Part shown: piece after piece, positions 15,368 through 20,059 of the stretch
How the letters are laid out: each line of letters begins with the position of its first letter
Position numbering within the stretch: position 1 is the stretch's first letter
Source: Thamnidium elegans
Taxonomy: Eukaryota; Mucoromycota; Mucoromycetes; Mucorales; Mucoraceae
Assembly (NCBI GenBank): GCA_025201345.1
Contig: JAIXMG010000011.1
Span: 558,001 to 622,000 of the forward strand
Direction of reading: 5' to 3'
DNA: 64,000 nucleotides
The notes under the pieces: generated by a model
Told to the model about the DNA's origin: nothing
Database searches by the model: none
What the model saw: the letters and a program-made list of their open reading frames with translations, nothing else
Program-made: the position numbers and the translations under genes

Positions 15368-16406
<1,039 letters not shown>

Positions 16407-16526: not shown

Positions 16527-18900
16527 CTATGGTTTGTTTTGATGAATTGCAATCCATCCTTCTCGACGAGGACTTGCCTTCTTCGCCCATAATTCTAAGA
16601 ATTTGCCTCTCTTTAATTCGGAGTCATATACAGCTCTCGGTAATAAGGTCTCGATCATATCGTATACACCAATAGGTTTAGGTACAGTAAATTCATCATG
16701 GATCCATTGATTTCTTGGTAATTCAAAGTCTATAATTACATCGGGAGATCGCTGATGTCTTAACTCAAATCCTTCACCTTTTTTAAACATCAATAGTATT
16801 TCCTTTGTAGAACTAAAGTATGGACTTGGTTCGTCTAGTTGCACATTGTTTACTGATTTTTTAAACCAAACTAGGTTTTCAACATATTTACAATCTATAC
16901 AGATATATTTAATCATCTTGACATTTTTTTTTTAAAAAAAACAAAGGGGCACTTACTCATGGTATACATAATACGCACAATATCTGCTTGAATTAACTTG
17001 TGTGACCAAACGAAAATCATACCAGCTGTCATATGTGTAGACACTGGCTCTATTAATTTTTGAAAATCCATCAAGTTCCAAGTACAGCTACCATCATTCT
17101 TTCCATCAGCAACATAAAACTCCCATGGTGGATCAACCAAGATACACTCTAAAGATGATGCATCTGTTGCCGGTTGTAATATATCGTCTAATAACGGTAT
17201 ACAGTCATTAATATCATTTAATTCTATATAACTTTGCTTTGATTCATCTATCTGAGTTTTGGCTGATAATGGTTGGATTCTTTTGACTCCACTGTATAGA
17301 TCGTTAGGAATTCGAACATGCGATATAAATTCGTCGGGTGTATCAACTTTTCGTTTCTTGACACCAGTAAAGAATCGTGAGAGTGAGGATTGTTGGATTT
17401 TAGAGGGCGTGTCACTAGAACTGGTGGATAGTGGAGGTGGTTGAGATGTCTTTTTAACCATGCTCTTTTGTAACAGTCTAAATTTAAATTATATCAGTGA
17501 TTTAGATAAAAGATGCAAGTAAAAAAAAACTTACAATTCAGTTGTGATAAGACTTCTACGCCAGTCTTGTTTAGCATACCAGTACTGATCTCTATTATAT
17601 TTATCAAGGTAAGGTCTATATATATATATATATAAAGTCAGTTACAAGAAACACAGTTCATATTAAAAAATAAATTACATTAAAAACTTTCGATAATTTT
17701 GTAATCTATCGTTCCATTCAGTCTCCCAATCTCGAGCTTGCAAATGAGCTACCTCAGGTTCAGATTCCATCATCATAAAATCATCTTCTCCCTCAATAAA
17801 TTGTTTTGGTGGCATCTTTTTAACTAAATCAGATATATTGGATCGCTTTTTGGTTACAATTCGAGGCGTTGTCACTTTGGGTTTGGGTTTGGGTGTGGTA
17901 AGGGATTGTCCTGAGCGACCATGAAATTCTTTTAACCATTGATCAATGTTTTTTTCGTCCTCTTTTACTTCTGGGTCCTTCCATTCTGGACCCAATTCCG
18001 TATTTGGTACAGTACCAGATAATCGTTCCTTATGTGTTTGCTTTAGTTTTCCATCGACTGTGATGTAACTGTCGTCTTGTAGTTTACCATCACTAACTAG
18101 TTTACGATAATAGTTCATACATTGGTACCCAACCCGATGAGGAATACCACAACTAAATAAACCCCAAGATGACCCGATCTTGTAACCTTTACTGATCCAT
18201 TCGTTGTACCTGTTCATAAATAATTTTTGTTCCTGTGCTGACCAGCCACCATTTTGTTGTCCCTCACCAGGTGCAACAAATCTATAGTAAAAACCTTCTG
18301 GACTCTGTATTTTTTTTTTTCACTATATACATTAGTTTTGAGATGATGTTTTTTTTTTGAAGTAGTAATGTAAATTCTTTACCATGTATCTATTTTCCCA
18401 TGCTTTTATACGCGAACCTTGCCATTGCTTTACTGATTCTCTGGTAAAAACATCTTCTCCTACTCGTTTACGTTTTAAGGTAGTCGTGGTTGTAGATTTA
18501 GGTGATGGTTCATCGTTTACAGAAAGTGACTCGAACCGAGGTGTTTCGGTATCAACGAGTTCATCCATCTCCATGGTTTTTAAAGTGGCTTCTTGCCAAA
18601 ATGATTCATCTTCCTCCATGTCTATATCACCTTGTTCTTGCTTGATTTGTTGTAAAATATATAACGGTTCTTCCATACGGCCCTTTCCTTTTCCTTCGAC
18701 CTGGGGGGGGGGTTAATAAATTTAGTTGTCCAAAAAGATTGATCTTTTTCTTTTACCTCTGGTAATTCTTGTAAAGAAAGTTTCAATGATTCAGTAGGTT
18801 CTTCTTTTAAAATTGTGGTCTTGGACTTTGATAAACTAACTACTTTTTTACTGGAACCAATCTTTGGTATAAAAGACGACGATCCACCCCATGAGGACAT
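16527..18900 (-). CDS. Predicted SANT - PIP box - MT-A70 adenine methyltransferase
   Basis: Six exons fit without a stop: 18757-18900, 18383-18700, 17679-18304, 17535-17615, 16957-17477 and 16527-16894 (introns 56, 78, 63, 57 and 62 nt; 685 aa). Residues ~155-235 (SPEGFYYRFVAPGEG, WSAQEQKLFMNRY, WGLFSCGIPHRVGYQCMNYY) form a SANT/Myb-like domain. An Arg/Lys- and Pro-rich linker follows. A PIP box (QSSLSRFF, ~419-426) and basic KKRK come next. The C-terminal MT-A70 domain has the catalytic DPPW at ~505-508, then LVWFKK and KPIGVYDMIETLLPRA...GWIAIHQ. The intron 17478-17534 joins the SANT and MTase parts. Its GTAAGT donor itself makes the only stop, and the phase is kept. If it is not spliced, these are two tandem genes (17531-18900 and 16527-17461). 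By homology the enzyme methylates adenine N6, probably in DNA. Confidence 0.82.
17369..17392 (-). other. PCNA-interacting (PIP) box coding segment
   Basis: Codons here read QSSLSRFF, an exact QxxLxxFF PIP box. It is followed within five residues by KKRK, which can serve both as the basic flank favoured by PIP boxes and as a nuclear localisation signal. It lies in a disordered linker ahead of the methyltransferase domain, where it would be accessible. Confidence 0.8.
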
Positions 18901-19081: not shown

Positions 19082-19466
19082 TATGGAAAGTAAAACTCAA
19101 TACATAAAAAATCATTTGAATGGTTTCCAATTACAATTACAATTTTTTTTTCAAACACTTTAATTTCCAAAACAGAGCCTCGGCCGAAAAGGATTTCAAA
19201 TTATTACTTCGAAACAATATTAATTATAAGTGTAGAGATAGCTGGTCAGCGCTTATTTCTTTTGCCGAGGAAATAAATAATTTAGGCTTCAATAACGTAA
19301 GTGTTTCATTAATTATAGTAAGCTATGGTCTAAAGCGTTACTGTGGTACTTTAATACAGAGACTTTGGATGCTTTTTGGAGGAAAAAGGTACTGTTAAAC
19401 ATTACAAGAAACAGCAGCGAGCTAGCTGCGATAAACGAATTTGAAAGCTATTCAGAAAACAGACTA
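19082..19466 (+). pseudogene. Unrecognised ORF remnant interrupted by a MITE
   Basis: Frames separated by intron-like gaps read MESKTQYIKNHLNGFQLQLQ, AEKDFKLLLRNNINYKCRDS, WSALISFAEEINNLGF and LWSKALLWYFNTETLDAFW. The composition is clearly protein-like. The phases do not join cleanly, and the last frame ends in the MITE at 19467. I do not recognise the family. It is most likely a decayed gene, though a poorly resolved intron model is possible. Confidence 0.4.
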
Positions 19467-19723
19467 CAGTAGCGGCTCTATTTAAGGGTGACCAAAATCT
19501 GGAAGAAATCCACCCTTGAATGTGATAAAATAATTTGAATTGATCTTCATAAACTAATAAGTTTATGATAAAGCAATATCTTTTAGATTTATTTAGTGGT
19601 TTTTTGTTATTGAATTCCACCCTTAAATCGAATAATGGTAATAGTGGTGTAAAAGCTGTGGACCGAAGAAGTTCTAGAGAAATACACCCTTAAATCGGAC
19701 ACCCTTAAACAGAGCCGCTACTG
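19467..19723. mobile_element. Tc1/mariner-type MITE, 257 bp, TA target-site duplication
   Basis: The ends are inverted repeats of about 24 bp. The left end starts CAGTAGCGGCTCTATTTAAG and the right end finishes CTTAAACAGAGCCGCTACTG. Both are flanked by TA (19465-19466 and 19724-19725). Internal copies of CACCCTT-AA lie near each end. The interior has no coding capacity. TA duplication and size fit a non-autonomous Tc1/mariner element. Confidence 0.88.
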
Positions 19724-20059
19724 TACAAGTATCTCATTCGATAATGTGAATATTTGATCTTCTATTGTGGTCACTAACCCTTTATTTTTAGCTCAAGAGA
19801 AAGTTCTCTTACACGTTTGATAATGATGCCAATAATACCAAAACTAATAAGAATATTGTGCTATCCTGAATAAGCTATTTCCGTAACAGTATCACGAACA
19901 TCTTTTATAAGGACAATCAATTAGGTACAGATTTATTCATAGTAAATCGGTACTTGTCAAATAAAGCTGTAATTACATAATTTAAATAGTAATCAAATGC
20001 TAAATATATCGCTCGTATATCAGGCAGCAACGAAAAGAAAACCTGTATTCATAAAATTT

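Follow-up and report, generated by a model that had tools for sequence, protein, structure and literature searches.

Can N6-methyladenine (6mA) in early-diverging fungi be passed on through replication by a methylase complex that is tethered to PCNA? The question is raised by one gene on the minus strand (18900-16527) of a 64,000-nucleotide stretch of the Thamnidium elegans contig JAIXMG010000011.1; this whole stretch is referred to here as the window, and the product of the gene as the window protein. The window protein combines a Myb-like domain with an MT-A70 domain, and the linker ahead of the MT-A70 domain includes the octamer QSSLSRFF, which has the form of a PCNA-interacting protein (PIP) box. 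We read the gene as an extra subunit of the fungal 6mA writer, in which an MTA9/AMT6-7-like MT-A70 domain and a Myb-like domain are joined by a disordered linker with a PIP box, and which would be tethered to PCNA and pair with the catalytic Mta1 for maintenance methylation. This is a reading towards which we lean with moderate confidence.

A conserved PIP-type motif in a predicted disordered linker

The motif and the residues that follow it are encoded at these positions.

17392-17369, minus strand: PIP-type motif QSSLSRFF, residues 419-426; read directly, conserved in relatives
17368-17348, minus strand: basic flank TGVKKRK, residues 427-433; read directly

An earlier note on this DNA, made from the letters alone, had described an exact PIP-type motif with a basic flank at 17360..17400, in a disordered linker ahead of the DPPW domain. 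Both elements are encoded on the minus strand, at 17392-17348; the motif lies inside the interval that the note gave, and the basic cluster extends 12 bases beyond it, to 17348. A PIP box has Q at position 1, an aliphatic residue at position 4 and two aromatic residues at positions 7 and 8, and QSSLSRFF satisfies this consensus. At positions 5-6 it has S-R, and not the T-D by which PIP degrons are recognised. The motif shares one exon with DPPW, from which it is separated by 78 residues. As for the disorder, the predicted AlphaFold model of P0001, the annotated Thamnidium elegans protein that is 98% identical to the window protein over the searched region, agrees with the note: the motif (411-418 in P0001) falls within a disordered stretch at 390-434 where the predicted local distance difference test score (pLDDT) is <50, and there is no strand there.

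Relatives were scored for the consensus Qxx[LIM]xx[FYW][FYW]. The first search gave 28 homologues, which are 25 proteins of named fungi, P0002 (73% identical), P0004 (65%) and the transcriptome protein P0027. One of these 28, P0028, is of the other paralogue type; the remaining 27, together with ten additions from a profile search that include Tieghemiomyces, P0153 and two proteins of the amoeba Balamuthia, make up a window-type set of 37. The consensus is present at the aligned place in 25/28 first-search homologues and is kept in 31/37 window-type proteins overall. The earlier note had held that absence of the motif from close orthologues would speak against its idea; the alignment finds it far from absent. 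Of the 32 homologues, fungal or fungus-like, whose sequence covers the site (P0002, P0004 and P0153 included), 31 keep the consensus against 0.22 expected when each linker is shuffled, a comparison that rejects a chance motif and, since the null ignores kinship (several rows are congeners, and relatives are not independent), rules out only chance composition as the cause. Shuffles of the window protein's own linker produce the loose consensus in 1.5% of cases and the exact QxxLxxFF in 0.1%. The six window-type proteins without the consensus are the Calcarisporiella protein, which covers the motif site and has lost it; P0154 and P0155, which are fragments stopping short of the site; and three near-misses, P0027 (QLTLSSFV) and both Balamuthia proteins (QLDLSFW, one residue short).

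In a reduced alignment of 22 rows, the anchor positions are Q in 95%, L in 95% and F in 91%, with F or W at position 8 in 22/22; the majority residue accounts for 36-45% at positions 2, 3 and 6, and for 82% at position 5 (S). The octamer ranks 1 of 233 linker windows by conservation, and residue 430, in the basic flank, is K or R in 21/22 rows. Position 4 is L in 31/31 motif-bearing proteins, though the pattern permitted L, I or M. The motif ends in FF or YF in Mucorales, Umbelopsis, Endogone and Bifiguratus, and in FW in Mortierellales and in Tieghemiomyces, where the orders are those to which we take the relatives to belong, and where Tieghemiomyces is presumably outside Mucoromycota. We regard the feature as confirmed and conserved beyond chance; its functional reading is sound but unproven.

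Gene model and protein class

The remaining features of the gene are as follows.

18900-16527, minus strand: whole gene; six exons, 685 residues plus stop; hand gene model with GT..AG introns
18900-18757, 18700-18383, 18304-17679, 17615-17535, 17477-16957 and 16894-16527, minus strand: the exons of the hand gene model
18047..18442, minus strand: Myb-like domain, about residues 135-240; spans the intron 18382-18305, borders approximate
17123..17134, minus strand: DPPW motif, residues 505-508; read directly from the sequence
16545..17149, minus strand: MT-A70 domain (PF05063), residues 500-680; split by the intron 16956-16895

The window gene is not among the results of a six-frame Pfam search of the genome, which the divergence of its MT-A70 domain and the intron within that domain probably explain. 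The window protein scores 36.8 bits with PF05063 (cut-off 23.9). The Pfam family Myb_DNA-binding matches 8/35 family members (E up to 0.1; best 6e-5), and in the same search it does not match the window protein itself; the Myb region has no significant match among PDB sequences (best E 0.025). The predicted model of P0001 has pLDDT mostly ~90 over the Myb-like region, and most of the MT domain is also well ordered. P0001 matches the window protein in architecture; compared with the hand gene model it is 8 residues shorter at a single splice junction. Two neighbouring genes mistaken for one fusion are excluded by annotated homologues from several genera, which have the Myb-like and MT-A70 domains in a single protein.

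Myb-like domains of this kind also occur elsewhere. P0156 and P0157 of Balamuthia, and P0027, have one as in the window protein together with a near-PIP stretch, which suggests that this architecture may be older than fungi; both Balamuthia models stop ahead of any MT-A70 domain. Two further genes of the Thamnidium genome, L013 (G000:C56) and L014 (G000:C2), encode Myb-like domains resembling that of the window family; no MT-A70 match is reported for either, and the Pfam Myb match of the C56 gene is below cut-off.

By its sequence class, the window protein appears to belong to the DNA-6mA branch of the MT-A70 proteins and not to the RNA branch, which is in line with the DNA methylation that the earlier note had in mind. 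A METTL3/14-type RNA methylase is rejected: neither METTL3 nor METTL14 in the PDB matches the family profile up to E 0.01, and the window protein has no match of this type up to E 1. Within the DNA branch it looks closest to the MTA9/AMT6-7 partner class and not to the catalytic Mta1. The profile of the window-type family scores 101 bits with MTA9, 101 with MTA9-B and ~52 with MTA1 in the PDB. The C-terminal end of the window type, LELWAKK..RREGW, has the Mta9 form, the Mta1 form being LEIFGRK..RDYWVTIGN. DPPW itself is found in 25/27 window-type first-search proteins (P0027 has DPSW, and P0026 is without that stretch). An automated motif picker places DPPW in 28/37 window-type proteins, the remainder being fragments or mis-picked places, and for the 120 listed MTA9-type proteins, which are of the type encoded on contig C45, the same picker gives 102 DPPL, 12 DPPF and 0 DPPW. 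Since the window type combines DPPW with an MTA9-type C-terminal end, we treat the window protein as a probable partner subunit, for which intrinsic catalysis could go either way by sequence. The adenine methyltransferase of the earlier note is thus not the obvious catalytic enzyme: it is AMT6/7 (MTA9)-like, and Mta1 is encoded on contig C18.

A candidate PCNA-tethered partner of Mta1

The genome of Thamnidium elegans has the Mta1 gene on contig C18, an MTA9-type paralogue (L011, G000:C45:1128000-1132500) and a canonical PCNA gene; the PIP consensus occurs in 0/120 of the MTA9-type relatives listed for the C45 paralogue. In the mechanism that we propose, the window protein would pair with Mta1, its PIP box would dock on PCNA in the wake of the fork, the Myb-like domain would grip the DNA, and the dimer would remethylate hemimethylated ApT sites of the new strands, so that 6mA would depend on it. 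Mta9, the second subunit, has no PIP box and would form a complex that works independently of replication.

A system of this kind has been described in a ciliate. A 2026 review (PMC13297926) states that the Tetrahymena AMT6 complex performs PCNA-recruited 6mA maintenance, and that for the fungal MTA1c the choice between de novo and maintenance methylation is still to be determined. In PMC11258239, all symmetric 6mA sites are lost in Mucor upon deletion of mta1 or p1; PMC12695648 reports AMT1 and AMT6/7 together across eukaryotes. Literature searches turned up no description of a PIP box or a PCNA link in fungal 6mA enzymes, and the two most relevant papers could contain one. Wang et al. are said to have found, in 2025, that a Tetrahymena complex of AMT1 and AMT6 is recruited by PCNA. 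The claim of a wholly undescribed principle was therefore too strong, as the principle had already been reported in Tetrahymena; what seems to be new is the fungal form, with its fused architecture and apparent independence.

In our tree, Tetrahymena MTA9 groups with MTA9-B (100/99), and we infer that MTA9-B is AMT6. Orthology of the window type with Tetrahymena MTA9-B is rejected, a clade of MTA9-B with the fungal type having p 0.008 in the approximately unbiased (AU) test, in which each Tetrahymena row consists of two joined partial pieces and which was chosen after the first tree had been inspected. The fungal version therefore looks like an independent variant of a PCNA-linked partner. Most likely we are dealing with a PCNA-tethered Mta1 partner in fungi that works like the AMT6 complex and is not its shown orthologue. 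The two systems have in common an AMT6/7-class subunit, the PCNA recruitment (proposed for the fungus), and a genome with an AMT1-type enzyme and a second AMT6/7-class protein; the fungal protein differs from Tetrahymena AMT6 in its fusion to a Myb-like domain and in retaining DPPW. It shares the MT-A70 subclass with Mta9 from the fungal MTA1c complex (Mta1, Mta9 and P1), but the listed Mta9-type proteins mostly have DPPL or DPPF in place of DPPW, no PIP consensus and, in the one modelled, a predicted hairpin. Mta9 is used here for a sequence type, and the published P1 or Mta9 of Mucor or Rhizopus could equal a window-type protein.

The proposed logic of a clamp-tethered maintenance methylation complex is also that of DNMT1, whose PIP box targets 5-methylcytosine maintenance to the fork. 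DNMT1 has an unrelated enzyme fold and acts on a different base, and unlike in DNMT1 the fungal PIP box is on a partner that is likely non-catalytic. As a motif, QSSLSRFF resembles the Qxx(aliphatic)xxFF of FEN1-type PIP proteins, such as the QTRVQDFF that we read by eye in the FEN1-like gene of the same genome, from which it differs in having L and not V at position 4 and in lying in an internal linker and not near a protein end.

For early-diverging fungi as a whole, we put forward tentatively, as a possibility rather than an expectation, that they have a dedicated subunit for replication-coupled 6mA maintenance with an origin separate from the ciliate AMT6/AMT7 duplication. In fungi and in ciliates, one Mta1/AMT1 would have come convergently to be divided between PCNA-bound and PCNA-free partners, and the PIP box would occupy the former site of an MTA9 hairpin.

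Alternative explanations

Several observations weigh against a PIP box on a partner subunit. The profile-profile alignment of the window type with fungal Mta9 (E 3.3e-48 over the MT region) puts Q411 of P0001 on the Q of the Mta9 block QDRNGNYF and FF on its YF, with basic residues after both. In that block, D at position 2 and G at position 5 are invariant in the 110 of 120 listed MTA9-type proteins where it was recognised, by a pattern that permitted D or E at 2 and G, D or N at 5. The predicted model of one Mucor Mta9 has a beta hairpin at the block (strands 199-207 and 213-221, pLDDT ~57-60), and in the window type the conserved stretch extends beyond the motif. Because the motif is at the site of a conserved MTA9 hairpin, some of its conservation could have a structural cause. 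On the side of the protein class, a second structural aligner ranks MTA1 chains first. The motif might then be a structural lead-in to the MT-A70 domain in remodelled form, an altered MTA9 hairpin that packs on a partner subunit and not a PCNA ligand. We consider this unlikely, as the window type has lost the D and the G of MTA9, has L at position 4 throughout and is variable at positions 2, 3 and 6, and as the low-pLDDT model of P0001 is strandless at the site. The simplest reading is that a docking motif took the place of the hairpin and reuses existing residues.

PIP-like motifs are able to bind several partners, and a genuine PIP box could serve repair or another fork-linked role, or a non-PCNA partner of the Mlh1 or Rev1 type, and contribute nothing to 6mA maintenance. 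The upregulation of two DNA repair genes in Mucor mta1 and p1 deletion mutants, given in PMC11258239, is consistent with such a role; we still find it quite improbable for a protein of a branch, AMT6/7, that is found together with AMT1 across eukaryotes (PMC12695648), in a genome that encodes Mta1. Compatible with a PIP function, and different only on who catalyses, is the proposal that the window protein is a second catalytic 6mA methyltransferase on PCNA. The near-universal DPPW of the window type, against its absence from the listed MTA9-type proteins, and the MTA1 chains of the second aligner point to it; the C-terminal end of the MTA9 form (LELWAKK..RR.GW) and not the AMT1 form (LEIFGRK..R.YWVTIGN) and the preference of the sequence profiles for MTA9 make it very unlikely. 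That the basic stretch KKRKV is a functional nuclear localisation signal, with QxxLxxFF incidental to it, is hardly credible, even though KKRK fits the monopartite pattern and several Mucorales sequences have comparable basic runs after the motif: Mortierellales retain QxxLxxFW with RPVR, KPVR or RPIR replacing the basic run, and the conservation of the anchors exceeds that of the basic positions.

If the window protein is a PCNA-tethered partner of Mta1, the 6mA of early-diverging fungi would be inherited through replication, in parallel to DNMT1 and to the AMT6 complex of the ciliate; two alternative partners would explain how one catalytic subunit could serve both replication and transcription. 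With a conserved PIP box assigned to one particular subunit, the question of de novo versus maintenance methylation by MTA1c becomes experimentally tractable by a few point mutations.

Other 6mA-related genes and neighbouring sequence

The Mta9-type paralogue on contig C45 is 94% identical to that of Mucor flavus, 73% to Mucor saturninus, 50% to Mucor lusitanicus and 47% to Parasitella; the low values for the last two perhaps reflect a loosening of constraint in species with little symmetric 6mA. The annotation joins a cytidine deaminase (PF00383, PF08211) to 9/120 of the Mta9-type proteins listed, all from Coemansia and Dipsacomyces: P0118, P0128, P0136, P0137, P0138, P0140, P0142, P0143 and P0028. 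These fusions are either genuine or merged models of neighbouring genes. A match to N6_Mtase (PF02384), the family of the Mucor MetB that makes asymmetric 6mA, is found at L022 (G000:C45:862250-862618) inside an open frame of 1113 residues, so that symmetric and asymmetric 6mA systems may coexist in this genome.

Downstream of the window gene, an open reading frame on the minus strand (15368-15910) has a very long polyglutamine run, and its only Pfam match, to eIF-3_zeta, is below cut-off. Just upstream of the gene, at 19465-19725, lies an element of 261 bp whose 29-nt terminal inverted repeats are 93% complementary. Pieces related to it have 82 matches across the genome, with 40 of 139 candidates scored; given the terminal inverted repeats and the many matches, the element looks like a member of a non-coding transposon family.
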